Counted from the first letter of the stretch, positions 6,016-58,083 are shown. The stretch: DNA of 64,000 nucleotides from a virus (IMGVR_UViG_3300002835_000103:18536-82535), one strand, 5' to 3'. Notes: generated by a model from the letters alone, not told the origin. Made by a program: numbers and translations.

Positions 6016-6046
6016 AATTTAATCACTCCATGTTAAAATTGTTTAT

Positions 6047-6054
6047 TATTTATT
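6047..6054 (-). promoter_or_regulatory. Late-type promoter variant (AATAAATA)
   Basis: AATAAATA on the minus strand lies 32 bases before the ATG of the APS kinase fusion, in a non-coding gap. It differs from the T4 late core in one base, a change tolerated in T4-like marine phages. Confidence 0.45.
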
Positions 6055-6075
6055 GCCTGTTAAAAACTAAAATTT

Positions 6076-7227: not shown

Positions 7228-7239
7228 TTTGTTGTTCTT

Positions 7240-8361: not shown

Positions 8362-8377
8362 TTTGTTTTTCTTTTAA

Positions 8378-9526: not shown

Positions 9527-9553
9527 TTTTTGTTCTTTTCTTTTTTTTAATTT

Positions 9554-10681: not shown

Positions 10682-10694
10682 TTTGTTTTTCTTT

Positions 10695-11825: not shown

Positions 11826-11840
11826 TTTGTTCTCTTTTTA

Positions 11841-12974
11841 TTAATAGCTAATAGCCAAAGTGAACGTACCAACTGCATCAATCTTTGACCAATTAGTTGA
11901 TGAACCAATCTGTGTTGGGCTTGATCTATTTGTGGTATCACCTAACCCCAATCGACCGGATCCATTTCCACCCCAAGCCCACATGGTACCATCTGTTTTA
12001 ATGGCCACGCTGTGACTTCTACCGGCATCAATACTTGACCAATTGGTTAAAGCACCAACTTGAACTGGGCTTATATATTGAGTGGTACCACCTAAACCTA
12101 ACATTCCTATATAATTGCGACCCCATCCCCACAAGGTGCCATTATTTTTCAGGGCCACGCTGTGAGCATATTTACCCCCAGCAACACTTAACCAATTGGT
12201 TAGACCCCCTACCTGTTTTGGGCTAGAATAATATGTATAATTATTTAATCCTAACTGACCAAAAGCATTCATCCCCCATGACCATAACGTACCATCTGTT
12301 TTGACGGCCATACTGGCCCTATACCCTCCAGCAATATTTAACCAAGTAGTTAATGAACCAATTTGTACTGGACTAGATCTATTTGAGGTATCGCCTAGCC
12401 CCAGTGAACCGTGTTGATTAACTCCCCATGCCCACATGGTACCATCTGTTTTAATGGCCATGGTATGCTGACCACCTGCATTAATCTTTGACCAAGTAGT
12501 TAATGCACCAATTTGTACTGGACTAGATATACTTGTAGTATTGCCTAACCCCAATCGACCGCTATTATTATAACCCCATGACCACATGGTACCATCTGTT
12601 TTAATGGCTATGTTGTAGAAGAAACTTCCTTCAATTGTTGCCCAATTGGTTCCTGCGCCAATCTGTACTGGACTAGATCTATCTGTAAGATCCCCCAAAC
12701 CTAACTGCCCCGTATCATTGTAACCCCATGACCATAAGGTACCATCTGTTTTGAGGGCCATGCCGTGATTATACCCGGCAGCAATATTCAACCAAGAGCC
12801 TAGCGAACCAATTTGTTTTGGACTTGAATAACTTGTAGTATTACCTAAACCTAGTCGACCGTCGCTTCCACTACCCCACGACCATAGATAAGATGTTGGT
12901 TCGGGAGGTGGAGGTGGAGTATACACCATGTCGAAACTACCTTTTGTGGTTATACCCGAAAAAATTAATGGCAT
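11841..12974 (-). CDS. RCC1-repeat beta-propeller protein 6
   Basis: 377 residues. Tag MPLIFSGITTKGSFDMVY with a PPPPPEP hinge, then SYLWSWGSG and seven blades. One blade has the divergent strand LKNNGTLWGWG and another has the turn LNNYTYYSSP in place of LGNTT. The tag deviates most in the first two residues from the MAFTFSG type but keeps the FSGxxxxG core. Same late operon as its neighbours. Confidence 0.8.
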   Translation of the reverse strand: MPLIFSGITTKGSFDMVYTPPPPPEPTSYLWSWGSGSDGRLGLGNTTSYSSPKQIGSLGSWLNIAAGYNHGMALKTDGTLWSWGYNDTGQLGLGDLTDRSSPVQIGAGTNWATIEGSFFYNIAIKTDGTMWSWGYNNSGRLGLGNTTSISSPVQIGALTTWSKINAGGQHTMAIKTDGTMWAWGVNQHGSLGLGDTSNRSSPVQIGSLTTWLNIAGGYRASMAVKTDGTLWSWGMNAFGQLGLNNYTYYSSPKQVGGLTNWLSVAGGKYAHSVALKNNGTLWGWGRNYIGMLGLGGTTQYISPVQVGALTNWSSIDAGRSHSVAIKTDGTMWAWGGNGSGRLGLGDTTNRSSPTQIGSSTNWSKIDAVGTFTLAISY

Positions 12975-12992
12975 TTTTTTTTATTCTTTTTA

Positions 12993-14099
12993 TTAATTAC
13001 TGATGGCATGGCTAAAATAACTACCTGCAGCAACACTTAACCATTTTGTTAATGCGCCAATCTGTACTGGACTAGATCTATTGGTAGTAGTGCTGTCGCC
13101 TACTTGACCATTTCCGTTACCGCCATGTCCCCATAATGTGCCATCTGTTTTAATAGCCAATACATGTCGAGGACCTGCAGTAACATTTGACCAAGTTGTT
13201 AAAGCGCCAATTTGTACTGGATTAGATCTGTCTGTAGCATCACCTAAACCCAATTGTCCTTCATCATTGTTACCCCATGACCACATGGTACCATCTGTTT
13301 TGATTGCAACACTGCCAGCAGAATGAACAGCAACCTTTGACCAAGTAGTTAAGGCACCGATCTGTGTTGGGTTAACTGCGTTAGAGGTATTACCTAATCC
13401 CAATCTGTTATTTTGACCGCTACCCCATGTCCACAAGGTACCATTTGTTTTAACTGCCACGGCGTGATACCACGAAATTGCAAATGTTGACCAATTGGTA
13501 TCTGTACCAACTTGTACTGGACTAGAACCGGCTCTACCTTGCGTTGCTTCGCCTCCACCAGAGCCTATCGACCACAACGTACCATCAGTTTTGCCGGCAA
13601 GGGTAAAGTACCTACCTGCAGAAACATTCAACCAAGTTGTTAGTGCACCTACTTGTTTTGGACTTGAATATGGTGAAGTATTACCTACACCTAATTGCCC
13701 GTAGCTATTACCACCCCATGCCCACATGGTACCATCCGTTTTAACTGCCATGGTGTGATTTCTACCTCCAGAAACTCGTGACCAAGTTGTTAGTGCACCT
13801 ACTTGTTTGGGACTTGAATAGTTTGTAGTATTACCTACACCCAATTGACCAACATTGTTTATACCCCAAGACCATAGACTACCATCGGCTTTGATAGCCA
13901 TGCCATGATAACCTCCTGCGGCAACACTTAACCAAGTAGTTAAAGCACCAATTTGTACTGGACTAGATCTATTTGTGGTATCGCCTAACCCCAATCGACC
14001 AGAGCTATTACCGCCCCATGACCATAAGTAAAATTCTGGTGGTGGTGGAGGAGGCTGAATATTGACTCCGCCTAATATAGTTATTCCGATTAGATCCAT
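12993..14099 (-). CDS. RCC1-repeat beta-propeller protein 7, one blade strongly diverged
   Basis: 368 residues. A shortened tag (MDLIGITILGGVNI), a six-proline hinge, EFYLWSWGGN and seven blades. Blade 4 is rebuilt: TLWSIGSGGGEATQGRAGSSP replaces the usual WSWG...LGLGNTT turn. Another blade ends TLWGHGGNGNGQVGDS. These two changes alter loops on one side of the propeller and could be a binding face. No enzyme motif is present. Confidence 0.78.
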   Translation of the reverse strand: MDLIGITILGGVNIQPPPPPPEFYLWSWGGNSSGRLGLGDTTNRSSPVQIGALTTWLSVAAGGYHGMAIKADGSLWSWGINNVGQLGVGNTTNYSSPKQVGALTTWSRVSGGRNHTMAVKTDGTMWAWGGNSYGQLGVGNTSPYSSPKQVGALTTWLNVSAGRYFTLAGKTDGTLWSIGSGGGEATQGRAGSSPVQVGTDTNWSTFAISWYHAVAVKTNGTLWTWGSGQNNRLGLGNTSNAVNPTQIGALTTWSKVAVHSAGSVAIKTDGTMWSWGNNDEGQLGLGDATDRSNPVQIGALTTWSNVTAGPRHVLAIKTDGTLWGHGGNGNGQVGDSTTTNRSSPVQIGALTKWLSVAAGSYFSHAISN

Positions 14100-14128
14100 T
14101 TTGTTTTCTTATTATCTTTTACAATTTA

Positions 14129-15007
14129 TTAAAATGTTATTGAACCAGAACTGGTCCATTTATATATTCTATATCCGCCGGATACTATTACGTTGGGAGA
14201 TCCTGTTGTATTTGATGCGGCCGGATTAATATCTTCGTAACGAAGTATAACTATACCGGAACCACCAGCTCCGGAACCGCTACCGTTGCCTACTTGATTA
14301 CCGCCGCCGCCACCGCCGGTATTTACATTGCCGGCAGCATTACCGGCACCGCCGCCGTATCCTATACTAGCTGTGATATCGGATCCGCCACCAACGCCAC
14401 CGGATCCGCCTCCGGCATATCCAACACTTGTACCGGATATAGAGGAGTTTATACCTGCTCCACCAAAACCGCCGGCGGTGGTGGTGGCTGCTGCTCCAAC
14501 TGCGCCAGCGCCACCACCACCGCCACCGCCACCAGTTTCTTGGCCACCACCAGCTCCGCCATTATAGCCTTGTCTTGGTGGTCCAGCAGTTCCAGAACCG
14601 CCGCCACTTGCTAGTCTACCACCTTGACCACCACCCGATCCACCGTTATTTATAGAACCTATGCTGCCGCCGGCGGCATTACCTGCACCACCGCCGATTG
14701 CTGTTGCAGTTCCGCTTATTGATGAATTTGCCCCAACACCGCCATTTAGTCCGTTGTTATTTCCTGTAGCAGTGCCGCCGGCACCTACTGTAATAGTAAG
14801 TGTAGAGCTACTAACTAACAAGGCTGTTCCTGTTAATAATCCGCCGGCGCCACCACCGCCACCACCGCCCCGCTGGTTATCAGCTGATCCACCACCTGCA
14901 CCGCCCGCGACTACAAGGTATTCTATAGTAGGAGTCACCGGCGGTGTTGGAATATGCACCGCAGTCAATGCTCCGTTTATTCTTACGCCTGAAATTGTTA
15001 GTGCCAT
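14129..15007 (-). CDS. Glycine-rich adhesin-like protein with the RCC1-array tag
   Basis: 292 residues. Tag MALTISGVRINGALTAVHIP and hinge TPPVTPT, then EYLVVAGGAGG and a long glycine-rich domain (GGGGGGGAGG, GGQETGGGGGGGGAGAVG), ending with TGSPNVIVSGGYRIYKWTSS and GSITF. Glycine-rich tip proteins of this type include the S16 phage Gp38 adhesin, in which polyglycine II helices carry variable loops. Its tag is almost the same as that of the next gene, which carries an RCC1 propeller. Likely a virion tip protein. Confidence 0.7.
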   Translation of the reverse strand: MALTISGVRINGALTAVHIPTPPVTPTIEYLVVAGGAGGGSADNQRGGGGGGGAGGLLTGTALLVSSSTLTITVGAGGTATGNNNGLNGGVGANSSISGTATAIGGGAGNAAGGSIGSINNGGSGGGQGGRLASGGGSGTAGPPRQGYNGGAGGGQETGGGGGGGGAGAVGAAATTTAGGFGGAGINSSISGTSVGYAGGGSGGVGGGSDITASIGYGGGAGNAAGNVNTGGGGGGNQVGNGSGSGAGGSGIVILRYEDINPAASNTTGSPNVIVSGGYRIYKWTSSGSITF

Positions 15008-15023
15008 TTTGTTCTTTTAATTT

Positions 15024-16166
15024 TTAGCTACTGATGGCTAAAGACCATCGTTGACCTGCGGCAACACTTGACCAATTAGTCAATGAACCCACTTGAATCG
15101 GACTAACTACCGGTGTAGTAGTAGTGCCATCACCTACTTCACCATATGAATTCCTGCCCCAAGACCACAAGGTACTGTTAGTTTTAATTGCCAAATTATG
15201 ATATCTACCCGCGGAAATCTTTAACCAATTGGTTAACGCGCCAATTTGGGTTGGACTAGATCTACGTTCTTGATCACCTAATCCCAATCTACCGGCGCCA
15301 GTGTTACTATTATCACCCCATGACCACATGGTGCCATCTGTTTTAATGGCCACGCAGTGACTACTACCTCCAGCAATACTTGCCCAAGTAGTACCTGCAC
15401 CAACTTGTTTTGGACTAGAATAATCTGTAGTATTGCCTAGTCCCAACATGCCATAAGCATTTCTACCCCAAGTCCATATGGTACCATCTGTTTTAACTGC
15501 AATACCGTGATAAGAACCCCCAGAAACTCTTAACCAATTGGTTAATGCGCCAATTTGTACTGGGCTAGATACATTTGTAACATTACCTAAGCCTAGTGCA
15601 CCAAAAGTATCATTTCTACCCCAAGACCATATGGTACCATCTGTTTTAATTGCAGCGGTCCAACTTCCCGAACCTGCAGAAACACTTGCCCAAGTGGTGC
15701 CTGCACCAATTTGTACTGGACTAGATACACTTGTGGTATTGCCTAAACCCAATTGACCATAATTATTTTTACCCCATGACCACAAGGTGCCATCTGTTTT
15801 AACGGCCATGCTGTGATACCTACCTGCACTAACATTTAACCAAGTAGTTAATGCACCAACCTGTACTGGACTAGATGTATTTGTAGTATTGCCAAGGCCT
15901 AATTGACCATCGCCATTGAGACCCCATGCCCACATGGTACCATCTGTTTTAGTCGATAAACTGTGATAGCCCGCCGCAATATTTAACCAAGTAGTTAATG
16001 CGCCGACTTGTGTTGGACTAGCTACATTTGTAGTATTGCCTAACCCTAATTGACCGGCATTGTTTCTGCCAAAACTCCATAGGTAATATATTGGTGGAGG
16101 AGGAGGTGGAATATGCACCGCATTAAGATTACCGGTTATAGTAAAACCGGAGATGGTCAGGGCCAT
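15024..16166 (-). CDS. RCC1-repeat beta-propeller protein 8
   Basis: 380 residues. Tag MALTISGFTITGNLNAVHIP, hinge PPPPPP, then IYYLWSFGRN and seven blades. The first blade has SFG in place of SWG. Two blades have longer turns (NDTFGALG and NSNTGAGRLG), and the last uses KTNSTLWSWG. The tag and hinge match the glycine-rich gene downstream, though the modules attached are unrelated. It is the first RCC1 gene of the array in transcription order. Confidence 0.8.
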   Translation of the reverse strand: MALTISGFTITGNLNAVHIPPPPPPIYYLWSFGRNNAGQLGLGNTTNVASPTQVGALTTWLNIAAGYHSLSTKTDGTMWAWGLNGDGQLGLGNTTNTSSPVQVGALTTWLNVSAGRYHSMAVKTDGTLWSWGKNNYGQLGLGNTTSVSSPVQIGAGTTWASVSAGSGSWTAAIKTDGTIWSWGRNDTFGALGLGNVTNVSSPVQIGALTNWLRVSGGSYHGIAVKTDGTIWTWGRNAYGMLGLGNTTDYSSPKQVGAGTTWASIAGGSSHCVAIKTDGTMWSWGDNSNTGAGRLGLGDQERRSSPTQIGALTNWLKISAGRYHNLAIKTNSTLWSWGRNSYGEVGDGTTTTPVVSPIQVGSLTNWSSVAAGQRWSLAISS

Positions 16167-21710: not shown

Positions 21711-21718
21711 TATTTATC
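21711..21718 (-). promoter_or_regulatory. Late-type promoter variant (GATAAATA)
   Basis: GATAAATA on the minus strand in the 40-base gap before the oxygenase-like gene. It differs in one base from the T4 late core, and its 35-base distance to the ATG is like that of the exact copies. Confidence 0.45.
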
Positions 21719-22910
21719 ATCCTAATCCTATACTATGGCTGTATCCAGTAGCTACAGTAAGCCAATTTGTTAAGGATCCGACCTGGTTTGGCTCACTTCT
21801 ACCAAAAGTATCTCCAAGACCAAGTTTACCGTTAAAGTTATCTCCCCAAGACCACAATGTACCGTCGGTTTTAGTTATTATGCACTGAGTGTTCAAAGCT
21901 CCAGTCCCAGCATTTGACCAAGTTGTTAATGCACCAACTTGTTTTGGACTAGAATAACTTGTGGTATTACCTAAACCCAATTGTCCAGATGATCCTCTAC
22001 CCCATGTCCACAATGTACCATCAGTTTTAATTGCCGCGCAGCTATTATACATCGCACGAATTTTTGACCAATTTGTTAATGCCCCAATTTGTACTGGGCT
22101 TGAAAAGTATGTAATATTACTTAGACCTAATTGACCATAACCATTATTTCCCCAGCTCCACATAGTACCATCAGTTTTAATAGCAATCGAAAAATTGGAT
22201 TGTCCCCCGCAACTACCACGTGCCCAAGTTGTTAATGCACCAATCTGTACTGGACTAGATCTATGCGCAGTATCGCCTAGTCCTAATTTGCCATGATGGT
22301 TCGCGCCCCATGACCACATAGTACCATCTGTTTTAATGGCTATGGAGTGATCAACACCGGAGGAAACACTTGACCAATTTGTTAATGCCCCAATTTGTAC
22401 TGGACTAGATATATTTGTAGTATTACCTAAACCAAGCTGACCTAAGTTATTTTTACCCCACGACCAAATAGTACCATCTGTTTTGATGGCCATGCTGCAA
22501 CCGAAGCCTGAACTAACACGAGACCAAGTGGTTAATGCACCAATCTGCACTGGACTAGATCTATTTGTAGTATCACCTAAGCCCAATACGCCTTGATAAT
22601 TTTCACCCCATGCCCATAAGGTGCCGTCGGTTTTAATTGCTTGACTATTTGAGTATCCTGCACCTACAACAGACCAATTCAAAGACCCAACTTGTTTTGG
22701 ACTTGAATAATTTGTCGTATTGCCTATACCTATTTGACCACTGCTACCGCTCCCCCATGAATATATTTTATATACTACCGGAGGCGCAGGCCAAATGCCT
22801 GCTCGTTTTGCCTGCATTTGATCTGCAGGATTAAAAATTCCAGAAGCAGATGAAGTATTAACTACTGTGGGTGTTGCAGATATTAATCCGCCGTAATACT
22901 TTTTAACCAT
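21717..22910 (-). CDS. RCC1-repeat beta-propeller protein 9 (second tag type)
   Basis: 397 residues. It carries a different N-terminal tag of about 40 residues (KYYGGLISAT, then NTSSASGIFNPADQMQAKRAG and a WPAPP hinge), followed by YKIYSWGSG and seven RCC1 blades. The tag occurs in structural proteins of aquatic phages and is shared with the next gene. The second blade turn is shortened (GSLNWSVVGAG). Because of the other tag, it may dock at a different virion site from the array proteins. Confidence 0.78.
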   Translation of the reverse strand: MVKKYYGGLISATPTVVNTSSASGIFNPADQMQAKRAGIWPAPPVVYKIYSWGSGSSGQIGIGNTTNYSSPKQVGSLNWSVVGAGYSNSQAIKTDGTLWAWGENYQGVLGLGDTTNRSSPVQIGALTTWSRVSSGFGCSMAIKTDGTIWSWGKNNLGQLGLGNTTNISSPVQIGALTNWSSVSSGVDHSIAIKTDGTMWSWGANHHGKLGLGDTAHRSSPVQIGALTTWARGSCGGQSNFSIAIKTDGTMWSWGNNGYGQLGLSNITYFSSPVQIGALTNWSKIRAMYNSCAAIKTDGTLWTWGRGSSGQLGLGNTTSYSSPKQVGALTTWSNAGTGALNTQCIITKTDGTLWSWGDNFNGKLGLGDTFGRSEPNQVGSLTNWLTVATGYSHSIGLG

Positions 22911-22928
22911 ATTAATTTATATTGTTAT

Positions 22929-24140
22929 TTATTGCTTAGTAGCCAACACGAATCGATGGGAATTTCCTGCAACAACATCTATCCAGGTAGTCAACGATCC
23001 AACTTGATTTGGACTAGTATTATTAAAAATATAGCCTTGTGCCAGGACTCCACCCTGATCACTTCCCCATGCCCATAATGTACCATTTGTTTTAATTGCG
23101 GTGGTGAAATAATTACCTGCAGAAACTTTTAACCAATTAGTTAAAGCTCCAACTTGGTTCCAAACGTATGTACTCGAAGTTCCGTTATTTCCCAGTTCTC
23201 CATATGAATTCTGGCCAATAGTCCATAATGTACCATCAGTTTTAGTTGCTGCATTGTGGTTGCGGTTAGCAGCAACCGACGCCCAATTTGTGCCTGAGCC
23301 AACTTGTGTTGGCTCAGATCTTTTTACAGTATCCCCAAATCCTAATCTGCCCTGAAAACCACTTCCATTAGTCCCCCAGGCATACAACGTACCATCTGTT
23401 TTAATTGCAAAACTTGTATTATAACCTGCAGAAATCTTTAGCCAAGTGGTTAGAGCACCAATCTGTTTTGGACTCGAATATGCTGTAGTATTACCTAAAC
23501 CCAATTGACCGTCATTAGCAGATCCCCAACTCCACAATGTACCATCGGTTTTAACTGCCAAACAATGAAATTGAACAACTGAAGTAGTTTTCCAATTGGT
23601 TAAAGCGCCAATTTGTTTAGGAGAAGAATAATAAGTACTATTACCTAGACCCAGTACTCCGGCGTTATTAGCACCACAACTCCACATCGTGCCATCGGTT
23701 TTAACTGCAATAAAGCATTGTAAACCTGCGCTAACACTTTCCCAATTAGCTAATGCACCTACTTGCGTTGGACTAGAAACTGGTGTGGTATTACCAAGAC
23801 CCAAACGACCATACCCATTTCTTCCCCAGGCCCAAAATGTTCCGTCAGTTTTAATAGAATATCCTGAGTGTCCTCCGGCTGCTATAGTTTTCCAATTGGT
23901 TAAAGATCCAACTTGTTTAGGTGAGGAATAAAGGTTAGTATTACCTAAGCCAAGGTTACCATATGAATTTTGCCCCCAAGACCAAAGATTGTATGGGATA
24001 GGAGGTGCTGCAGGCGTAGGCCAATTGCCTGCTCGTTTTGCCTGCATTTGTTGAGTAGGATTGAATATTCCAGAAGCGGATGAAGTATTAACTACCGTTT
24101 TGGTGGCAGATATTAGTCCTCCATAATACCTTCTTTTCAT
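22929..24140 (-). CDS. RCC1-repeat beta-propeller protein 10 (second tag type)
   Basis: 403 residues. Tag KRRYYGGLISATKTVV...GIFNPTQQMQAKRAG and a WPTPAAPP hinge, then YNLWSWGQN and seven blades. Several blades depart from the WxWG core: TMWSCGAN, TLYAWGTN and TLWTIGQN. One has an insert GSGFQGRLGFG. It is the most diverged RCC1 protein in the window but clearly a paralogue of the downstream gene with the same tag. Confidence 0.78.
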   Translation of the reverse strand: MKRRYYGGLISATKTVVNTSSASGIFNPTQQMQAKRAGNWPTPAAPPIPYNLWSWGQNSYGNLGLGNTNLYSSPKQVGSLTNWKTIAAGGHSGYSIKTDGTFWAWGRNGYGRLGLGNTTPVSSPTQVGALANWESVSAGLQCFIAVKTDGTMWSCGANNAGVLGLGNSTYYSSPKQIGALTNWKTTSVVQFHCLAVKTDGTLWSWGSANDGQLGLGNTTAYSSPKQIGALTTWLKISAGYNTSFAIKTDGTLYAWGTNGSGFQGRLGFGDTVKRSEPTQVGSGTNWASVAANRNHNAATKTDGTLWTIGQNSYGELGNNGTSSTYVWNQVGALTNWLKVSAGNYFTTAIKTNGTLWAWGSDQGGVLAQGYIFNNTSPNQVGSLTTWIDVVAGNSHRFVLATKQ

Positions 24141-32627: not shown

Positions 32628-33746
32628 TTATGACGAGATTGCAGTTGAATGTCTATATCCTGCAGAAACATTCAACCAATTAGTTAAAGCACCAATTTGT
32701 ACTGGACTAGATCTATTTGTGGTATTACCTTGACCTAATTGACCGTAGCTATTACCGCCCCATGACCACAGTGTACCGTCGGTTTTAACTGCCGTAGTAT
32801 GGAATTGTCCCGCATCAATTTTTGACCAAGTAGTCAATGCTCCAACTTGTACAGGGCTAAATATATCAGTAGTATTACCTAAACCCAATCGGCCTGTCTC
32901 GCCTGAACCCCAAGCCCATAATGTACCATCTGTTTTAATGGCTACATTATGCTGATATGCTGCTTCTATAATTGACCAATTGGTCAACGCACCAACTTGT
33001 GCTGGACTAGAACCACCGCCCGATCCTCCATCTTGTCCTGCATTGTTTCTACCCCAAGCCCACAATGTACCATTGGTTTTAATGGCAATCGTATGATGGT
33101 CTCCGCTAGTACAGCGCAACCAATTATTTAATGCGCCAACTTGCACAGGACTAGATCTATAAAATGTATTGCCCTGGCCCAACTGCCCATAAAAATTATT
33201 TCCCCATGACCACAGGGTACCATCGGTTTTTACGGCAAACGACGATGAACCGCCGGTGCCAATACTCGCCCACGTGGTTAATGCGCCAACTTGTTTGGGA
33301 CTTGAATATGCTGTAGTATTACCGAAGCCAAGTTGTCCCGAGCCATTGGTTCCCCATGCCCACATGGTGCCATCTGTTTTTATAGCCAAACTATGCTCGC
33401 GGCCGCTGGCCAGACTACTCCAACCGGTTAATGCGCCAACTTGTACTGGACTAGATCTTGCGGTTGTAGTATTATCCCCCAATTGTCCACTGGCGTTATT
33501 ACCCCAACTCCATAATGTACCATCTGTTTTTATAGCTGTATTATGATACCCACCGCCAGCAACACTTAACCAATTACCCAGGGCACCAATTTGCGTGGGG
33601 CTCGATCTATTTGTGGTATCTCCCACGCCCAATCTCCCGTGGTAATTTACTCCCCATGACCATAAGTAAAATTCTGGTGGCGGAGGCAGATCAGGTGTCT
33701 CGTATGAAAATGTTCCACCAAATGTTAGATTTTGAAATGTGATCAT
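32628..33746 (-). CDS. RCC1-repeat beta-propeller protein 11
   Basis: 372 residues. Tag MITFQNLTFGGTFSYE and a DLPPPP hinge, then EFYLWSWGVN and seven RCC1 blades. One blade has an all-glycine turn (AGQDGGSGGGSSPAQVG) replacing LGxGNTT. It lies far from the main array, between a glycine-rich gene and a small structural gene, which shows that the RCC1 module has spread within the fibre region. Confidence 0.8.
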   Translation of the reverse strand: MITFQNLTFGGTFSYETPDLPPPPEFYLWSWGVNYHGRLGVGDTTNRSSPTQIGALGNWLSVAGGGYHNTAIKTDGTLWSWGNNASGQLGDNTTTARSSPVQVGALTGWSSLASGREHSLAIKTDGTMWAWGTNGSGQLGFGNTTAYSSPKQVGALTTWASIGTGGSSSFAVKTDGTLWSWGNNFYGQLGQGNTFYRSSPVQVGALNNWLRCTSGDHHTIAIKTNGTLWAWGRNNAGQDGGSGGGSSPAQVGALTNWSIIEAAYQHNVAIKTDGTLWAWGSGETGRLGLGNTTDIFSPVQVGALTTWSKIDAGQFHTTAVKTDGTLWSWGGNSYGQLGQGNTTNRSSPVQIGALTNWLNVSAGYRHSTAISS

Positions 33747-39175: not shown

Positions 39176-41722
39176 TTATCCTTCGATTGCTAGTATATAC
39201 GGTGTCATAACTGCAAACAATGCCTTATTGAATGTTCTACCTGTAATTGTGCCGTCAACTCTATTTATAACCAATCCTGTACCAATTCTAAAATCGCCAA
39301 GCTGGTCGGTACTAGTAAAGTATACTTTTCCTCCGCGCAATTCGGTAACTTCATTTTCCTGTATTGGTACGCCACCTAAAGACGGTAAAGCGGTTGCAAT
39401 ACTATTGCCTGCGCCAACATATTCAAATGTGTGTCCGCTTGATGAAATATAACTTCCTTGGTGGAATGAAACTCTTGAATTAGCTAATAAAGACTCATTA
39501 ACTACCTCTAGGAATGTAACTGTACTTGTGTTACCAACTAATTCAGTTGCACCTCTAACGGTATAGAATGTGCCAGATCCATTACTAATATTTGCCCAAT
39601 TTTGATTTACAAATTCCAATACTTCAGCTTTAATAAAATCTCTGTTTGCTAATACTAATTTTGTAGCATTAATTACATTAGTATTTGAACTCGGTGTAAA
39701 GGTAATTGGTACTTTTGTCGGCGCAACATTTGGACCGTTAGTAACAATATTTGCAATCAACCTTACATCTGTTAACAGTATATTTGCTTCTGTACTAGTT
39801 GCAAATGATGCAGCTGTTGTATTTTGTGTTACTGCATTTTGATAAACATTGGCAATTACGTTGCCGGTTACAATTTTTTCAACAAGGTTGCCAATAAAAT
39901 AATAAGCAGCGCCTGTTTGAACAACCTGATTATTAATTTGCGTGTCTGTAGCATCATATTGGTAATAAAAAGTACCAGAATTAACTGATTGTCTATTTCC
40001 ACCGTGTCTTAAATCAAAGGTGACACTTTCTAAAATATATCCAACATCTCTAGAACATTTTGTTGTTGCATTTGCACTATCAAGGAATGCAGTGTTTGCC
40101 CAGAAACCTGGGTATGTTGTATCAATGTAACCAATAACTTCTGCGGCAATAAATGATTTATTAGCAATAACTAAATTTGCAGCATTGCTAACATTTACGT
40201 TTGTATTTGCAGGATACTGATTAGGCACAATAATATCGGTTACACCTACTGTGCCGTTTTGAATTATATTTGTAACAACATTAAAATTATCTTGTAATCT
40301 TGCAGATTCTACTGCAGTGCCGCCTGTTCCATTTGAAGGTGATACGTTTGCCTGATATACTTGACTAACAGTTGTACCTTGTGCAAATTGAACTGCAATT
40401 TGCGCTGCAACATTAATTGCATTAATTGTTTCAATAGATTGATTAGGTATCGCCGATGTAGGTTGTGCCCAATACTGAAGACCAGCAAATGTTGCTTGTG
40501 TATTGCTACCATATGCCAAATCAAATGCCAAAGAGTCAACGATTAGACCAGTATCTCTTGAACACTTTTCTTGATTATAACTTGCAAATAAAGCAGAATC
40601 GCCATAATTTGGTTTAATAGGCAAGTTATAAATTACAACTTCGTTTGTTGCTTCTGTTATAGCATTTGCAACTTTGCCATAATACAATGGTTCGCTAACG
40701 CCGTCAGCCCATAAACCGTATGTGCCAAATGATGCATTAGAGTTTGTAACAGAACAGAATCCGCCATTTTCACATTTAATAGCAATATTACAACAAATTG
40801 TAAACACAGATACCAACTGAGTGTATCCTTTGTTTAACATATGGATACCTATACCGCCTTCATTCGTTTGGGTATAAGCATCGCACACCATTGATCTTAA
40901 TCCAGAAACATAACGACCATCTACACGCATACCTGTACCGGTAGTTGTAATAGAAGAACAATTCTGTATATATGGACTGGTTACAATAGTACCAGCAGAT
41001 CCATTTGGATTATATGAGAATGCGGCCGCAGGCGATACGTGGTCTCTGAATGTAATACCTGTTACATAAGAAGCATTCTCAACATAGAACATATCAACCG
41101 ATGGTTGCGTTGGTCTAATTGTAGTTGTTCTTAGATTATCCCCTACTAATGCAACACGTCTAGGTATTGTTACTGGTTGATTGTGTAGTCTGTAATCTCC
41201 GCTTCTTAAGAATACGGTTGTCCACTCTGTGGCCGCAGCCAATGCCACGTGGATATTGGCAAATGCGTTACCCGTTGTTTTGCCATCATTTGCATCGTTA
41301 CCATTTTGTGCAACGTATAATACGTTAGAATTAAATCTTGAAACTAATGCTCTTAATTCCGCAACAGTTGGTTGAATTGCGGCCTCAACTCTTGCATTTG
41401 TGTAATATAAATTACTTGCAGATTCTTGCACATTAGCAGTTGTTAAATCTGTAACATTTGCTTTTGCGTTTAATAAACTAATTACATTAGCATAAACTTT
41501 TGCATTTGTAAAATATTGATTAGTGCCTTCTGCAAGATTTGATGTTGTTTGATTTGATAAACTGCTTACAGTACCAGTTACATTACCAACAAGTGAACCA
41601 TTGACAGTTAAATTGCCAAAGATACCATTATAGGTTACATTTATATTGTTTGCGGTCAGGTAATCTACGCCATAGACGTTACCTGAAACTCTTAACCCTG
41701 ATTTTACTCTAAAATCTTGCAT
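39176..41722 (-). CDS. Fibre protein with pectate-lyase-like beta-helix
   Basis: 848 residues. The N-terminus (MQDFRVKSGLRVSGNVYGVDYL) and one NLYYTNARV repeat resemble the long fibres. From about residue 130 a right-handed beta-helix begins: NVLYVAQNGNDANDGKT, then VFLRSGDYRLHNQPVTIPRR, YVENASYVTGITFRDH and IQNCSSITTTGTGMR. This is the DUF1565/pectate-lyase-like fold used by tailspikes. Two long repeats with CSRDTGLIVDSLAFDL and CSRDVGYILESVTFDL follow. No lyase active site is evident. It may be a tailspike or a fibre that binds or cuts polysaccharide. Confidence 0.7.
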   Translation of the reverse strand: MQDFRVKSGLRVSGNVYGVDYLTANNINVTYNGIFGNLTVNGSLVGNVTGTVSSLSNQTTSNLAEGTNQYFTNAKVYANVISLLNAKANVTDLTTANVQESASNLYYTNARVEAAIQPTVAELRALVSRFNSNVLYVAQNGNDANDGKTTGNAFANIHVALAAATEWTTVFLRSGDYRLHNQPVTIPRRVALVGDNLRTTTIRPTQPSVDMFYVENASYVTGITFRDHVSPAAAFSYNPNGSAGTIVTSPYIQNCSSITTTGTGMRVDGRYVSGLRSMVCDAYTQTNEGGIGIHMLNKGYTQLVSVFTICCNIAIKCENGGFCSVTNSNASFGTYGLWADGVSEPLYYGKVANAITEATNEVVIYNLPIKPNYGDSALFASYNQEKCSRDTGLIVDSLAFDLAYGSNTQATFAGLQYWAQPTSAIPNQSIETINAINVAAQIAVQFAQGTTVSQVYQANVSPSNGTGGTAVESARLQDNFNVVTNIIQNGTVGVTDIIVPNQYPANTNVNVSNAANLVIANKSFIAAEVIGYIDTTYPGFWANTAFLDSANATTKCSRDVGYILESVTFDLRHGGNRQSVNSGTFYYQYDATDTQINNQVVQTGAAYYFIGNLVEKIVTGNVIANVYQNAVTQNTTAASFATSTEANILLTDVRLIANIVTNGPNVAPTKVPITFTPSSNTNVINATKLVLANRDFIKAEVLEFVNQNWANISNGSGTFYTVRGATELVGNTSTVTFLEVVNESLLANSRVSFHQGSYISSSGHTFEYVGAGNSIATALPSLGGVPIQENEVTELRGGKVYFTSTDQLGDFRIGTGLVINRVDGTITGRTFNKALFAVMTPYILAIEG

Positions 41723-41751: not shown

Positions 41752-44700
41752 TTATTTTTCGGTATATGTAGCGCCTGTCAATTTTACCGTAACTTGTATT
41801 GCTGGATCTGAAACATTACCATAAATTATAACATTACCAGTATTTATGTCTACCTGGAATGATAATAGATCTAAATTATTATCATTTGACAACATGGCAT
41901 ATTGAGTTATAAAACTACTAGTATCATCATGCATTACTAACAATTCACCTGAATTATATTTACCGGTGTATCCCGCACTTGTACCTTTTGCAGTATACAC
42001 GTATTTTGCAGTTGAATATGTAGAAGTACTAAATCTTGTTATCTCTACATTTCCAGTTGTTGTAATATTTGCAACTATTGCGTTGGATTGCCCAGCATTA
42101 GCTTTAATGAATTTTGTTCCATCCCATACCAATGTATCATTTGGTTGTATATTTGAAATATCAACATCTGCAAACACATTAATGCTCATTTGTGCTACAT
42201 TGGATAGTACGCGAGCATTAGAATAATAAAGATTATTTAATTCTACAACATTAGCAGTAGTTAAATCTACTACGTTAGCTTTTAATGCTAAATTCGGTGC
42301 TATTTGTGCGTTAACTCTTGCATTAGTATAGTAAAGATTGTTTAATTCTACAACATTTGCAGTGGTTAAATCTGTAACATTAGCTTTTAATCTTAAATTG
42401 GATTCAACTTGCGCATTAACTCTTGCATTTGTGTAGTAAAGATAATGAGGTCTTTCAATTATAGTAATTGTACCTACCATTGAACCGTGGAATTGGCATA
42501 TGTAATAATATGTTCCAGGAGCAATACCTGCAGTATCCCAGACTACCGTACCGATTTGCGCGCCATTATTAGTTACACCGGTAGTTACTGCGGATCCTGT
42601 GCCAGTTGTTGCAACAGTCTTTATCCAAAACGGATGCCCTGATGCATTAACATTAAATGTTAAAACAGTCCCAGCTTCAGCTGTAATAGCTATATTATTT
42701 CCAGAACTGTACCCCGTAAACACATAGGCGCTGGAACCCGAAGCAGTTACACCATATGTTCTGTCTGTTAAAGTAGAAAGACTTTCTATAACATTAGCAG
42801 TTGTTAAATCTGTAACATTAGCTTTTAACACTAAATTAGGTGCTACTTGTGCATTTACTCTTGCATTAGTGTAATATAGATTAGTACCTTCTGCTAAATT
42901 GCTTGTAGTGAAGTTACTAATTGATAACACAGTATTTGCTACATTAGCAGTACCGGCAACATTAGCTGTACCAGCAACATTTGCAAAATTAGCAACTAAT
43001 GCAACATTAGCGGTTTCGGCAACATTTGCAAAATTAGCGCTGGTTGCTGGTGGAGTTGCCCCCGCAACAAAAGATGTTCCATTCCAAATTAATATACCAG
43101 TGTTTGTAATGCCTGTTATATCAACATCCGCAAACACATTAATGCTCATCTGTGCTACATTGGATAGTACGCGAGCATTAGAATAATATAATGCAGATTG
43201 TGATTCAATTACATTTGCGCTGTATAACCCTTGCCAATTTGTAGCAGAAATATTATTTGCACTAATTAAATTAGCACCGATAATAGAACCACCTGTACCT
43301 GAACCAATTGTTACGTTGCCCGCACCAACATTACCAGTATAGCTTGGCAACGATGATATTACATTGGAATAAACTCTTGCATTGGTATAATATAAGTTGT
43401 TACCTTCAACAAGATTACTGGTTGTAAAATTGCTAATTGATAATACTGTATTTGCTACATTAGCAGTTCCTGAAACATTTGCAAAATTAGCAACCAATGC
43501 TATATTAGATATAGCAGCAACTAATGCTACATTAGCAGTTTCTGAAACATTTGCAAAATTCGCGCTGGTTGCTGGTGGAGTTGCCCCCGCAACAAAAGCT
43601 GTCCCATTCCAAATTAATATGCCAGTGTTTGCAATGCCAGAAATATCAACATCTGCAAATACGTTAATGCTCATTTGCGCTACGTTAGATAATACGCGAG
43701 CATTTGAATAATATAAATTATTGCCTTCTGTTAAATTAGAAGTTGTAAAATTACTTAATGTTAAAACAGTATTTGCAACATTAGCGGTTTCAGCAACATT
43801 TGCAAAATTAGTTACCAATGCAACATTAGCGGTTCCAGCAACATTTGCAAAATTAGCTTCAGTTGCTGTCGAAGGGGCCCCTGCAACAAAAGATGTTCCA
43901 TTCCAAATTAATATGCCATTGTTTCCAATGCCAGAAATATCAACATCTGCAAAAACATTAATACTCATCTGTGCTACATTAGATATAACACGCGCATTAG
44001 TATAATATAAGTTATTTAATTCTACAACATTTGCAGTAGTTAAATCTACTACATTGGCTTTTAAAGCTAAATTAGATTCTACTTGAGCATTAACTCTGGC
44101 ATTGGTGTAATATAAATTGTTTAGCTCTACTACATTTGCAGTAGTTAACTTTGGATCAACATGCGAGTCAACTCTTGCATTTGTATAATATAATTGAGTT
44201 CCTTCTACTAAATTAGTAGTACTAAAATTACTAATTGTAGATACAAATCCAGTTACATTACCAACAACATTACCTTCATATGTGGTGGCTACAACATTTG
44301 CTAAACGGAATCCAGCATTTGTAGTATCAACAGTGGCTGCGTTAGGATCGCCCGGAAGGTTATCAAAGAACTTAAATTTCTTATCAGTTGCGTCTCTAAA
44401 TATTCCCGCAAGTTTTTGGGTACCATCGTTATAATGTCCAATTAATCCCAGATCAATAGAATCTGAAGGATTGCCGTAACCCAATTGAATTAATGGATCA
44501 GTTATAATTAATGTATTTGCATAAAATCCAACTACATTTCCAACAACATTTAAGTTGCCGGTCAACGTCATATTATTGAATGTTACGTTAGATATTGTAT
44601 CTACATTTTGGCCGATGCTTATAACGCCGGTTGTATTATCGTAATAAACACCAGTCCCATTTGATAATGTTGATCTTACACGGGCATTGGTATAATATAG

Positions 44701-47700
44701 GTTGCCATTAGTCTCAAGTACATTAGCCGTATAGAGGTTATTCCATATATTCGACGTAATCGATTTTGTAGTAACATTTGAGTTTGATGCAAGAGCTTGA
44801 ACTGATAATGCGCCACCTGCACCAGATGTAATCCTTGTAGAACCAAGTGTTATTGAGAACCCAGATAGATATAGATCTTTCCATTTTTTATCTGGCGCGC
44901 CTAAATCATGCGCTTCATCTGTATCAGGAACAAGATTTGTATTAATAGATGCAAATCTGTCAGTAACGTTTGCATAAACTCGATCATTAGTATAATATAG
45001 ATTTGAAGCAGATTCAATTACATTAGCAGTAGTTAAATCAACTACGTTTGCCTTTAACGCTAAATTGGATTCAACTTGAGCATTGACTCTTGCATTCGTG
45101 TAGTATAGGTTGTTTAATTCTACTACATTTGCAGTCGTTAATTTTGGATCAACATAAGATTCAACTCTTGCATTCGTGTAGTATAAATTATTTAATTCTA
45201 CAACATTTGCAGTAGTTAACTTTGGATTAACATAAGATTCAACTCTTGCATTGGTGTAGTATAGGTTGGTTAGTTCAACAATATTTGCAGTAGTTAAATC
45301 AACTACGTTTGCTTTTAACGCTAAATTAGATTCAACTTGTGCGTTAACTCTTGCATTGGTATAATATAAGTTTGTACCTTCAGCAAGATTACTTGTTGTA
45401 AAATTACTAATTGATAATACTGTATTTGCTACAGTCGCTGTATTAGCATTTGATGCTGAAACAGAAGTTGGAATCCAAGCTGTCCCATTCCAACCCAATG
45501 CTTGTCCTGCAGATGGAGGAGTTGTTAATGTATCAACATCTGCAAGAACATTAATACTAGCAAGTGTTAAATTAGAAAATACTCTGGCATTGGTATAGTA
45601 AAGATATTGAGGTCTCTCAACTACAGTTATTGTACCTACCATTGAACCATGGATTTGACATATGTAATAATATGTTCCAGGAGCAATACCTGCAGTATCC
45701 CAGACTACCGTACCGATTGCAGCACCGTTATTGGTTACACCGGTAGTTACTGCGGATCCTGTGCCAGTTACTGCAGCAGTCTTTATCCAAAACGGGTGAC
45801 CAGATGCATTAACAGTAAATGTTAAAACAGTGCCAGCTTCAACTGTAATAGCTATATTATTTCCAGAACTGTATCCTGTAAACACATAGGCACTGGAACC
45901 AGAAGCAGTTACCCCATATGTTCTATTTGTTAAAGTGGCAAAACTTTCTATAACATTGGCCGTGGTTAAATCTACTACATTGGCTTTTAAAGCTAAATTA
46001 GATTCTACTTGTGCATTGACTCTTGCATTGGTATAATATAAATTACCGGCAGTTTCTATAACATTAGCAGTTGTTAAATCTGTAACATTGGCTTTTAATC
46101 TTAAATTGGATTCTACTTGCGCATTGACTCTTGCATTTGTGTAATATAAATTACTTGCAGATTCTTGCACATTAGCAGTGGTTAAATCTACTACATTAGC
46201 CTTTAATGCTAAATTTCCAGTAATAGCAGAATATACTCTTGCATTGGTAAAGTATAAATTTGTACCTTCTGCTAAATTAGCAGTTGTAAAATTACTTAAT
46301 GATAATACTGTATTTGCAACATTAGCAGTGATTGAGCTTTGTACAATACCAATAACGGTGTTTGCAATATTAGCAGAGAGTGAGGTTGAAACAACGTTAA
46401 TAACGGTGTTTGCAATATTAGCATATTCCGCGGAAGGAATATTAACACTGTTTGCTTCCCAAAATGAACCATTCCAGTAAAGAACTTGTCCTATTGCGGG
46501 ATTATTTGCGTTAACATCCGCAAATACGTTAAGGTTTGCTAAACTTAAATTGGCAAATACTCTTGCATTGGTAAAGTATAAATTTGTACCTTCTGCTAAA
46601 TTAGCAGTTGTAAAATTACTTAATGATAATACTGTATTTGCAACATTAGCAGTTGCAGCTGTATTAGCAGAATCAATAGTGCCGGAAAAAGAAGTTGCAG
46701 AAATTACGTTAGGTATCCACTTTACTCCATTCCAAACTAATGCATACCCAGTTTGAGGGGCAATCGTTACTGTATCAACGTCAACAAGAGCATCAATACT
46801 TGCCAATCTTAAATTAGCGTGAACTCTTGCATTTGAATAATAAAAGTTAACCGCGCCCTCGGGTATACTATCCGAATTAGGAATAATATTGCCAAGGTTA
46901 ATATTGCTTAATGCTAATACGTTAGCTCTAATAGAACCGGTAGTTGCATTATAAATTAAAGTATTATCAGGAACGCTAATGGCTGCTCTTGCTCTAGCAT
47001 TTGTAAAGTATAATTTTTGACCTTCTGGAATATCATCAGAAGTGCCAGAGAATGAAGTCTGTAATCCTGGATTAGAACCAACTAAAATCCAAGCATTACC
47101 AGAATACATTAAGAATGCAGAATCGCCCGCTTTTCTTAATTCAATTGCCAAGTTATTTTGAATGTTACTAGATATTACGAACTGTCCGCCACCCGTAGAT
47201 ACTAAGTTAATAACCTTTAATTGACCGTCTACACCTTTAGGTATATCTAAATAATTTCTACCGCCTTGGTCAATACTAACATTAGCAGGAGTAAATTCAA
47301 CTGTTGCCCCCGCATTACCAGGATTTCCAGTTCTAACTACACCCGGAGTATATTCTAGACCAAGAGTATTTGTTCCATCAATAGATGTCGAAAGTCCAAT
47401 TATATTACCAGCATTTGTAGGGTGGCTAACGTCAAAGGTATATGCCGAACCCTTGACAAAATACAATCCATCATTAAACGGTCTTAAACCAGTTGTACCA
47501 ACCCAACTTTCCGGAGCATGATTTAATGTACCTGTTGCATTTGCACCAAGTGACAAATTGATCTTGCCATTTACATGCTGGACATAAATGGTCTTGAAGA
47601 ATGGAGTACCATTTGCAAATTGTAAACCTCTACCGGAGGCAGATACGCCCTCAGTATACAAATAGATAGTGGAAGGCAGTACCGAGCCATTTGCAATGGC

Positions 47701-47949
47701 TGTAGTATCGGCAGATACACCGCCGAATAAATCGGTTCTAGTTGTGGTAATACTGACGGTGCCAATCCCTGTTAAGGATTGGACAGGTCCGCCAAAAAAG
47801 ATATTACCTGATAATGTAGGATCTGTGATTGAAGAAAAGAGTGTTCCTGCTGAAACATTCTTGCTAGAATCATCTTGTACTAATAAGAATAGGTCGTTCT
47901 TATTAACTACATTGGCCGATACCAGATCCGATATTTTTACATCTGCCAT
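41752..47949 (-). CDS. Giant fibre protein (2065 residues) with two cupredoxin-like modules
   Basis: The largest gene here. The head (residues 1-290) is homologous to the 146-residue protein at 4738. The shaft has at least 14 LYYTNARV repeats. Two near-identical modules at about residues 667-780 and 1720-1833 look like small blue copper domains: GHPFWIKT, later YYYICQIHGSM or YYYICQFHGSM, then VGTIT. The C-x2-H-x2-M loop has the spacing of amicyanin, and the GHP histidine could be the fourth ligand. Copper binding is not proven; the fold may serve as a binding module only. A CTAAATA late-like sequence lies upstream. Confidence 0.75.
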   Translation of the reverse strand: MADVKISDLVSANVVNKNDLFLLVQDDSSKNVSAGTLFSSITDPTLSGNIFFGGPVQSLTGIGTVSITTTRTDLFGGVSADTTAIANGSVLPSTIYLYTEGVSASGRGLQFANGTPFFKTIYVQHVNGKINLSLGANATGTLNHAPESWVGTTGLRPFNDGLYFVKGSAYTFDVSHPTNAGNIIGLSTSIDGTNTLGLEYTPGVVRTGNPGNAGATVEFTPANVSIDQGGRNYLDIPKGVDGQLKVINLVSTGGGQFVISSNIQNNLAIELRKAGDSAFLMYSGNAWILVGSNPGLQTSFSGTSDDIPEGQKLYFTNARARAAISVPDNTLIYNATTGSIRANVLALSNINLGNIIPNSDSIPEGAVNFYYSNARVHANLRLASIDALVDVDTVTIAPQTGYALVWNGVKWIPNVISATSFSGTIDSANTAATANVANTVLSLSNFTTANLAEGTNLYFTNARVFANLSLANLNVFADVNANNPAIGQVLYWNGSFWEANSVNIPSAEYANIANTVINVVSTSLSANIANTVIGIVQSSITANVANTVLSLSNFTTANLAEGTNLYFTNARVYSAITGNLALKANVVDLTTANVQESASNLYYTNARVNAQVESNLRLKANVTDLTTANVIETAGNLYYTNARVNAQVESNLALKANVVDLTTANVIESFATLTNRTYGVTASGSSAYVFTGYSSGNNIAITVEAGTVLTFTVNASGHPFWIKTAAVTGTGSAVTTGVTNNGAAIGTVVWDTAGIAPGTYYYICQIHGSMVGTITVVERPQYLYYTNARVFSNLTLASINVLADVDTLTTPPSAGQALGWNGTAWIPTSVSASNANTATVANTVLSISNFTTSNLAEGTNLYYTNARVNAQVESNLALKANVVDLTTANIVELTNLYYTNARVESYVNPKLTTANVVELNNLYYTNARVESYVDPKLTTANVVELNNLYYTNARVNAQVESNLALKANVVDLTTANVIESASNLYYTNDRVYANVTDRFASINTNLVPDTDEAHDLGAPDKKWKDLYLSGFSITLGSTRITSGAGGALSVQALASNSNVTTKSITSNIWNNLYTANVLETNGNLYYTNARVRSTLSNGTGVYYDNTTGVISIGQNVDTISNVTFNNMTLTGNLNVVGNVVGFYANTLIITDPLIQLGYGNPSDSIDLGLIGHYNDGTQKLAGIFRDATDKKFKFFDNLPGDPNAATVDTTNAGFRLANVVATTYEGNVVGNVTGFVSTISNFSTTNLVEGTQLYYTNARVDSHVDPKLTTANVVELNNLYYTNARVNAQVESNLALKANVVDLTTANVVELNNLYYTNARVISNVAQMSINVFADVDISGIGNNGILIWNGTSFVAGAPSTATEANFANVAGTANVALVTNFANVAETANVANTVLTLSNFTTSNLTEGNNLYYSNARVLSNVAQMSINVFADVDISGIANTGILIWNGTAFVAGATPPATSANFANVSETANVALVAAISNIALVANFANVSGTANVANTVLSISNFTTSNLVEGNNLYYTNARVYSNVISSLPSYTGNVGAGNVTIGSGTGGSIIGANLISANNISATNWQGLYSANVIESQSALYYSNARVLSNVAQMSINVFADVDITGITNTGILIWNGTSFVAGATPPATSANFANVAETANVALVANFANVAGTANVAGTANVANTVLSISNFTTSNLAEGTNLYYTNARVNAQVAPNLVLKANVTDLTTANVIESLSTLTDRTYGVTASGSSAYVFTGYSSGNNIAITAEAGTVLTFNVNASGHPFWIKTVATTGTGSAVTTGVTNNGAQIGTVVWDTAGIAPGTYYYICQFHGSMVGTITIIERPHYLYYTNARVNAQVESNLRLKANVTDLTTANVVELNNLYYTNARVNAQIAPNLALKANVVDLTTANVVELNNLYYSNARVLSNVAQMSINVFADVDISNIQPNDTLVWDGTKFIKANAGQSNAIVANITTTGNVEITRFSTSTYSTAKYVYTAKGTSAGYTGKYNSGELLVMHDDTSSFITQYAMLSNDNNLDLLSFQVDINTGNVIIYGNVSDPAIQVTVKLTGATYTEK
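42449..42788 (-). repeat. Cupredoxin-like module, copy 2 (near-identical DNA to copy 1)
   Basis: About 340 bases are nearly the same as 45611-45950. One stretch of more than 50 bases that includes the loop before the copper-type cysteine is unchanged. The copies encode CQFHGSM here and CQIHGSM in copy 1. Confidence 0.75.
45611..45950 (-). repeat. Cupredoxin-like module, copy 1
   Basis: Partner of the repeat at 42449-42788, lying about 3.2 kb away in the same gene. Both copies sit after an LTTANVIES(L/F) stretch and before a YLYYTNARV repeat, so the module was inserted or copied in frame between shaft repeats. Confidence 0.75.
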
Positions 47950-49730: not shown

Positions 49731-50183
49731 TCATTTCTTTTTGCCAGCTAATCTTGATCGCTCTAAACTTCTAATCTTAGGAATCATTCTTACGACGAGT
49801 CCTTTTTGTCCTGCTAAAATATTAGATGCTTGTTTTTCAATTCTGTCTTTTTCAGCAGCAGATAATTGTTTTTTATCTCTGCCTTTTAAAAGTTTTCTAA
49901 TTACCATTTGTCTTGCAGCAACTTTTGATCTACGATTAATAACATCTGTAGATGATGCTCGTCTTAATTTTAATCTGCGAGCTTGTCCGACTGCCGTTTT
50001 TCTGGATTTAAATTTTTGCGATTTTTGCATTCTTGCTGTTGCAGAAAGAGCTTCATCTAATCCATTTTCAAATTCGTCATCTGCATATAGATGCTCGATG
50101 TCTTCCCATTGTAGTTCTTCCACAATAGAATCTAATTCTTCTTCCGTTATATCGGTACTTAAAAATTCTTGAAAAGTAATCAT
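49731..50183 (-). CDS. Basic phage protein with capsid-targeting-like start
   Basis: 150 residues from the chosen ATG, which overlaps the Dps-like gene's stop as ATGA; an upstream extension of eight residues lies inside that gene. The N-terminus MITFQEFLSTDITEEE resembles T4 internal-protein leaders with a possible [LI]xE cleavage after ITE. The rest is very basic (KFKSRKTAVGQARRLKLRR, RKLLKGRDKKQL), as expected for a DNA-associated head protein. Conserved among marine T4-like phages; no enzyme motif. Confidence 0.65.
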   Translation of the reverse strand: MITFQEFLSTDITEEELDSIVEELQWEDIEHLYADDEFENGLDEALSATARMQKSQKFKSRKTAVGQARRLKLRRASSTDVINRRSKVAARQMVIRKLLKGRDKKQLSAAEKDRIEKQASNILAGQKGLVVRMIPKIRSLERSRLAGKKK

Positions 50184-50614
50184 TTTAGTGTTGCTTTTAG
50201 CATCCAAGCATGTTTCTGATGAGCAGTAATTCTATCTTGCAAGAAATTTGCCAAACCTAATTCTGATGCATTGTCTGCATCTCTATAAGAAAGCATTAAT
50301 GAAGCAAGTACCATGCTGTTTGTGTCCATTAAACTTTTAATCATTTGTAACGCTGGCATTACAGTTTCTTCTTCAGATACAACTGTAAGGTCTAGAAGTT
50401 GTTTTAATGATGTAGGTGTATATGCATCAATTTGTCGAATCTGTTCACCTAGCAAATCTATAGATCCATATACTTCTTCATAGATATCACCTAACAAATC
50501 GTGATACTGCGAAAAATCAGGTCCCTCTACATTCCAATGAAATGTATGAGCCTTGAAGTACATTGTAAACACATCTGCCAATGTCTTTTGTAAAGATAAT
50601 TGCAACGATTCCAT
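50180..50614 (-). CDS. Dps/ferritin-like protein
   Basis: 144 residues. The Dps signature is clear: HTFHWNVEGPDFSQYHDLLGDIYEEVYGSIDLLGEQI, seen as HWNVEGPxF, then H, Y, D and E at Dps spacing. Dps proteins oxidise and store iron and bind DNA as dodecamers. The acidic residue normally four positions after the second histidine is glycine here, with Asp one place later, so the ferroxidase site may be altered. It is coupled to the gene downstream by ATGA and lies among head-associated genes. Protection of phage DNA is an inference. Confidence 0.75.
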   Translation of the reverse strand: MESLQLSLQKTLADVFTMYFKAHTFHWNVEGPDFSQYHDLLGDIYEEVYGSIDLLGEQIRQIDAYTPTSLKQLLDLTVVSEEETVMPALQMIKSLMDTNSMVLASLMLSYRDADNASELGLANFLQDRITAHQKHAWMLKATLK

Positions 50615-57861: not shown

Positions 57862-58083
57862 TTAGCCTTTTTGTGGCTTCTTGACCTTGTTCAAATATTC
57901 TCTACCAATAAAACCCTGCTCAACTTCATTCAAAGCAGTTACAATTGGCTTATGATGTTTTGCATCAATTTTTGGTGCATATCCTTTGCGCAATTCTCTG
58001 GCGCGAGCTGATGCAATTAGCACCAGATCATACCGATTACCTACCATGTTAACTGCATCTTCTGATGTGATTTGATTTGACAT
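57862..58083 (-). CDS. RNA polymerase omega subunit-like protein (RpoZ-like)
   Basis: 73 residues. EDAVNMVGNRYDLVLIASARARELRKGYAPKID then KPIVTALNEVEQGFIGREYL follows the bacterial omega subunit almost throughout: NRFDLVL..A..RARQL, the P(K/L)I..K.KP stretch, and the T(V/A)ALREIE.G helix. In bacteria omega binds and stabilises the beta' subunit. A phage copy could replace host omega and change polymerase properties. It overlaps the upstream gene by one base and is one gene away from a regulator. The HTPKI-like part resembles beta-proteobacterial omega. Confidence 0.8.
   Translation of the reverse strand: MSNQITSEDAVNMVGNRYDLVLIASARARELRKGYAPKIDAKHHKPIVTALNEVEQGFIGREYLNKVKKPQKG

Follow-up and report, generated by a model that had tools for sequence, protein, structure and literature searches.

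A putative copper-binding cupredoxin module carried twice in a giant phage tail fibre

The fibre gene and its two modules

The window analysed here is a 64,000-nucleotide stretch of viral DNA (IMGVR_UViG_3300002835_000103:18536-82535). The phage is distantly related to the T4-like cyano-, pelagi- and methylophilophages. The psbA gene, a clue to the host, is absent from the 82.5-kb source record, and this record may be a fragment.

The open reading frame at 41752-47949 (minus strand) encodes 2065 amino acids and was confirmed as a real reading frame. It matches phrog_697 (structural protein) in eight stretches (E 5.9e-59), and also phrog_677 (baseplate wedge/tail fibre connector). The adjoining gene at 39176-41722 corresponds to phrog_17885, a tail fiber protein. 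These PHROG matches and the neighbouring genes, rather than virion proteomics, point to a tail fibre. Most of the protein consists of repeats of the TTANVxExxNLYYTNARV kind.

Two modules of about 105 amino acids interrupt these repeats (Table 1). The order TTANVIES, module, LYYTNARV occurs twice. However, this insertion anatomy is not general. Elsewhere, flanking by YYTNARV repeats is exceptional and was seen for four modules. Both modules carry GHPFWIKT, followed by YYYICQIHGSM in copy 1 and YYYICQFHGSM in copy 2, as had been noticed from the sequence. The C-x2-H-x2-M loop is likewise present in both (CQIHGSM and CQFHGSM). C764 and C1818 are the sole cysteines of the protein, and both are the proposed copper ligands. 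Two of the giant fibre-type ORFs nearby contain no cysteine.

Table 1. Position of the fibre gene, its modules and the codons of the proposed ligands in the window
Feature	Position	Strand	Remarks
Tail-fibre-type protein, LYYTNARV-type repeats	41752..47949	-	phrog_697 and phrog_677 matches; 2 cysteines in total
Putative cupredoxin module 1	45616..45933	-	About aa 673-778; between the TTANVIES and LYYTNARV halves of the fibre repeat
His718 codon (H48 of model), module 1	45796..45798	-	Proposed N-terminal ligand
Cys764 codon (C94 of model), module 1	45658..45660	-	Proposed thiolate ligand
His767 codon (H97 of model), module 1	45649..45651	-	Proposed second His ligand
Met770 codon (M100 of model), module 1	45640..45642	-	Proposed axial ligand
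Putative cupredoxin module 2	42454..42768	-	About aa 1728-1832; same insertion point, later repeat
His1772 codon, module 2	42634..42636	-	Proposed N-terminal ligand
Cys1818 codon, module 2	42496..42498	-	Proposed thiolate ligand
His1821 codon, module 2	42487..42489	-	Proposed second His ligand
Met1824 codon, module 2	42478..42480	-	Proposed axial ligand

The sequence-only reading described near-identical modules with identical DNA and took this as a sign of a recent copy. The first description stands at the protein level, with an identity of about 91%. It is confined to the two module intervals and does not extend over the whole of 41752-47949. The rest was not borne out. The DNA of the copies is 92% identical over a 100-codon core, with 24 nucleotide differences. 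At the codon level, 16 differences are synonymous and 6 are non-synonymous. Furthermore, the closest relative found (contig L001) has both modules at equivalent places, so the pair arose before these phages diverged. Copy 1 of the window and copy 1 of L001 share 95.6% identity, and the remaining comparisons give 87-90%.

A stretch near the N terminus of the fibre (47125-47721, minus strand, about aa 77-275, YTFDVSHPTNAGNIIGLSTSIDGTNTLG...) looks similar to a module relative without ligands. Its separate structure prediction from 7 sequences reached a poor pLDDT of 51.7. The N-terminal half alone had no match among solved structures.

Other genes of the window were also annotated. About ten genes of similar size lie within 6076-16166, 21717-24140 and 32628-33746 (minus strand). 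All six that were scanned match RCC1-type beta-propeller families (6076-7227, 8378-9526, 15024-16166, 21717-22910, 22929-24140 and 32628-33746). By these matches, the RCC1-type genes are a predicted expanded array of paralogous propellers in the phage tail region. A Ferritin/Dps-like protein (50180-50614, minus strand; PF00210, E 3.9e-19) is encoded among structural genes. A small protein at 57862-58083 (minus strand) matches RNA polymerase omega/Rpb6 (PF01192, E 1e-14).

Fold and ligand register of the module

The modules had been proposed to be cupredoxin-like and of the amicyanin type, with structure prediction as a suggested check. An AlphaFold model built with 53 relatives gives a confident beta-sandwich of eight predicted strands (pLDDT 97.9), in agreement with the Greek-key fold of cupredoxins. 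In this model, H48 directly precedes strand 50-53 and C94 ends strand 88-94. H97 and M100 fall within the loop ahead of strand 101-107. The best matches among solved structures (VIA) are copper proteins. The top one is a three-domain nitrite reductase (Z 11.0, 2.1 A over 93 residues), and rusticyanin (Z 10.3) and two-domain laccases are further matches. Copper proteins also rank first when the family profile is compared with PDB sequences. The Pfam model Copper-bind (PF00127) scores 21.9 bits on the whole ORF, against a gathering threshold of 21.2. On the isolated modules it scores 19.1 and 14.3 bits, both below the cut-off.

Rusticyanin is the best match at the level of residues. HHalign aligns it with the module at a probability of 95 (E 3.6e-8). 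In this register, GHPF~I lies on GHSFDI (His85), the Cys on Cys138 and the Met on Met148. HMMER places the second His on His143, bridging a loop difference of two residues. The shared motifs are NPTLxxxxG, GH(P/S)Fx(I) and GTYYY(I/V)CQI...MxGxI. The reference sequences were checked against 1cur for rusticyanin and 1aac for amicyanin. Nevertheless, the two proteins differ. Rusticyanin has a C-x4-H-x4-M loop instead of C-x2-H-x2-M and a Ser instead of Pro after the first His. Besides, the module lacks the N-terminal extension and, unlike rusticyanin, is repeated inside a fibre.

Amicyanin shares the spacing of the ligand loop, and Cys, His and Met are matched there without gaps. Outside the loop, its similarity to the module is weak. 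Amicyanin is a free, soluble carrier of 105 amino acids, whereas the window module is embedded twice in a fibre of 2065. When the module is aligned to amicyanin or plastocyanin alone, the N-terminal His falls two residues off because PH is matched to HP. The rusticyanin register, together with the coordinated loss of ligands described below, resolves this ambiguity in favour of H48.

The NCBIfam amicyanin model (TIGR02657) left the window module unmatched at E values up to 0.01, and 7 of 60 relatives matched it weakly (best E 0.00059). Likewise, the rusticyanin model (TIGR03095) did not match the window module, and it matched four of the 60 relatives (best E 3.3e-5). The N-terminal cupredoxin domain of the Hyphomicrobium denitrificans nitrite reductase, the top structural match, is 17% identical. 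However, that domain is part of an enzyme and the window module is part of a phage tail protein.

So the amicyanin assignment stands in part. Fold, profile alignment and coordinated loss argue for a domain of the cupredoxin type in which the His-Cys-His-Met set is complete and the loop has the length of amicyanin's. The rest aligns better with rusticyanin and with the N-terminal cupredoxin domain of nitrite reductase. By its sequence, the module is predicted to combine a core like that of rusticyanin with a loop of amicyanin length. The sequence register, the strand positions and the coordinated loss argue against a Cys placed far from the two His residues.

The first His is followed by a Pro, invariant in the module alignments examined. 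Azurin and amicyanin have Asn after the N-terminal His, and rusticyanin has Ser. In type 1 sites, a Pro at this position would cost the Cys thiolate one of its hydrogen bonds from the backbone. The potential of the module may therefore differ from that of classical cupredoxins. This unusual His-Pro dipeptide makes the predicted site not a textbook one.

Occurrence of the module and conservation of its ligands

A search of other phages, also suggested with the initial proposal, confirmed 399 relatives in viral contigs. Together with the Pfam score of the whole ORF, this tells against a coincidental pattern. With tblastn, we found 33 phage records. Nearly all are cyanophages, joined by an actinophage and marine single-cell viruses. 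Thus, hundreds of phage sequences bear the module, and most of them are aquatic. Among phage proteins, it is carried by a connector of the T4 gp9/10 type, by fibres, by subtilases, by proteins with a YHYH domain and by hypothetical proteins. In 37 of 171 placed cases it forms the last domain. A co-occurrence with the YHYH domain was dropped as a candidate, as it was seen in 1 of 163 module ORFs.

Tail proteins of the cyanophages P-SSM2, S-H9-1, P-TIM68, Bellamy, ACG-2014j and others have the same module, 34-53% identical and with the four ligands intact in the records examined. These carriers differ from the window fibre, and most have one module per protein. Their annotations read fibre, connector, subtilase or hypothetical, and none of the records examined names a cupredoxin. 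The tail module is also unlike the plastocyanin (petE) of cyanophages, a separate and free photosynthesis protein (PMC3037559).

The cellular matches are few. They were retrieved with one pattern that includes Cys and His, and their number relative to the viral hits is therefore no measure of abundance. Among them are chromosomal proteins of 430 amino acids from Hyphomicrobiales/alphaproteobacteria. Two alphaproteobacterial proteins of about this size (L085, 5158-6450; L083, 1600-2925) contain two segments of the H...C-x2-H-x2-M type, SNHPLSIS...YYYCLVHNGM and GHPFWIKT...YYICQIHSGM. Two actinobacterial proteins (L086, 1341-2141; L087, 5596-6249) present an N-terminal hydrophobic segment, a collagen-like stalk and the module at the C-terminal tip, with all ligands present. 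Fibre, connector, subtilase and YHYH carriers, and the tips of collagen stalks, are what is expected of an outward-facing accessory domain. Judged by its carriers, the module appears to be a mobile domain shared by phage tail proteins and some bacterial surface-type proteins. Separately, the plant family PF25489 (At5g54830-like domain) matches 11-15 modules in alignments A1 and A2 (best E 6.5e-7). The match hints at possible eukaryotic relatives.

We then considered whether the ligands are selected. The first collection was retrieved by patterns containing the ligands, so the 67 of 69 intact modules there were set aside as evidence. Members of the 60-sequence alignment A2 had been picked for H-C-H-M, and its invariant columns were likewise set aside. 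For the selection test, the four ligand columns were masked in the profile. The loci came from the ligand-free motif TGVTNNG or from whole-domain tblastn.

With this ligand-independent retrieval, H-C-H-M is present in 105 of 111 modules that have all four columns filled. Among clusters at 70%, 62 keep H/C/H, five have lost all three, and one keeps the Cys alone. No single-ligand loss was observed, compared with about 14 expected if the losses were independent. Fisher p values range from 6e-7 to 9e-9 (9e-9 for H48-H97), uncorrected for phylogeny. With the ligand columns left out of the tree, the intact or lost label needs seven changes, and supported branches force at least five of these. Within independent pairs, the residues either change in the same direction or show no difference, and never change in opposite directions (five informative pairs, sign test p 0.0625). 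The ligand-less modules of L052 and L099, for example, read GQPFWIKT ... YYYISQN. The L052 module belongs to a subtilase (5304-8426), and its contig has a gene for a PsbA-like protein as well. The site therefore looks selected. Its ligands seem to be kept or dropped together while the fold persists without them, as a functional metal site predicts.

Possible function of the site

We consider it likely, from sequence and model, that the module is a copper-binding cupredoxin with a complete type 1 (blue) ligand set on a tail fibre, leaving its specific role aside. Very probably the site binds copper. Free copper is scarce in the bacterial cytoplasm, and for this reason the metal would probably be acquired outside the cell, after lysis.

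Each module would be displayed at the side of the tail fibre, inserted off the shaft. Copper picked up extracellularly after lysis would be held by His-Cys-His-Met. Its main effect would be to lock the ligand loop and stiffen an accessory surface-contact module, and the stiffened module may aid the fibre in meeting the host. This would be one of several interchangeable extracellular modules shuffled among the tail proteins of marine and freshwater phages. We advance this structural role tentatively, as plausible rather than probable. We doubt a stronger version, in which aquatic phages show true blue-copper centres on their tails. There, the state of the copper (loaded or empty, oxidised or reduced) would control attachment or fibre mechanics and act as a cofactor of infection.

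The complete type 1 set, Met included, and the electron-transfer proteins among the relatives could also suggest a redox-active site. It would exchange electrons with a host surface protein or sense redox conditions, and the behaviour of the fibre would depend on Cu(I)/Cu(II). This is unlikely. No partner is identified, and several lineages do without the site. Moreover, the module occurs in phages of cyanobacteria and of an actinobacterium and in highly dissimilar carrier proteins, and this fits a generic role better than a single partner.

A shade less probable is that the ligands bind another soft metal (Zn, or Cu(I) only) or act purely as a fold lock, with no blue-copper centre in the virion. 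The His-Pro dipeptide would fit this, as would the apo and Zn forms in which cupredoxins are known. However, type 1 copper proteins have this same conserved Met and this loop spacing.

Phage tail fibres are already known to hold metal. As the nearest precedent, iron is bound at HxH motifs of the T4 gp37 tip, and a Ferrojan Horse hypothesis was formulated for marine phages (PMC11705849). A copper counterpart, with the fibre metal as bait or as a means to exploit host metal uptake, would have this precedent, and the fibres of the window phage have copper-type sites and no HxH motif. The gp37 tip presents octahedral iron at paired histidines, and the window module is a predicted self-contained copper-type fold. 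There is no link to a copper-uptake receptor, and bacterial proteins carry the same domain, so we regard this idea as very unlikely. An ordinary Ig-like beta-sandwich with an incidental or structural H-C-H-M is close to refuted: ligand-less versions do occur within the family, but H/C/H are lost jointly in several lineages, the residues are equivalent to those of rusticyanin, and copper proteins top the fold and profile searches.

The fold and the type of site are already known. Regarding cupredoxin domains in phage tails, no report was found in the literature available as open-licence full texts, which is weak evidence of novelty. Current annotations call the proteins that bear the module hypothetical, fibre or peptidase, and the site has thus been overlooked. 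The isolated phages P-SSM2, S-H9-1, P-TIM68 and Bellamy carry it, which makes a concrete test possible. Iron or zinc in structural sites makes up most of the metals known from phage tails. If the copper-binding reading is true, a widespread and selectively kept copper-type tail domain would add copper to them. It would also connect copper chemistry with the phages of marine and fresh waters.
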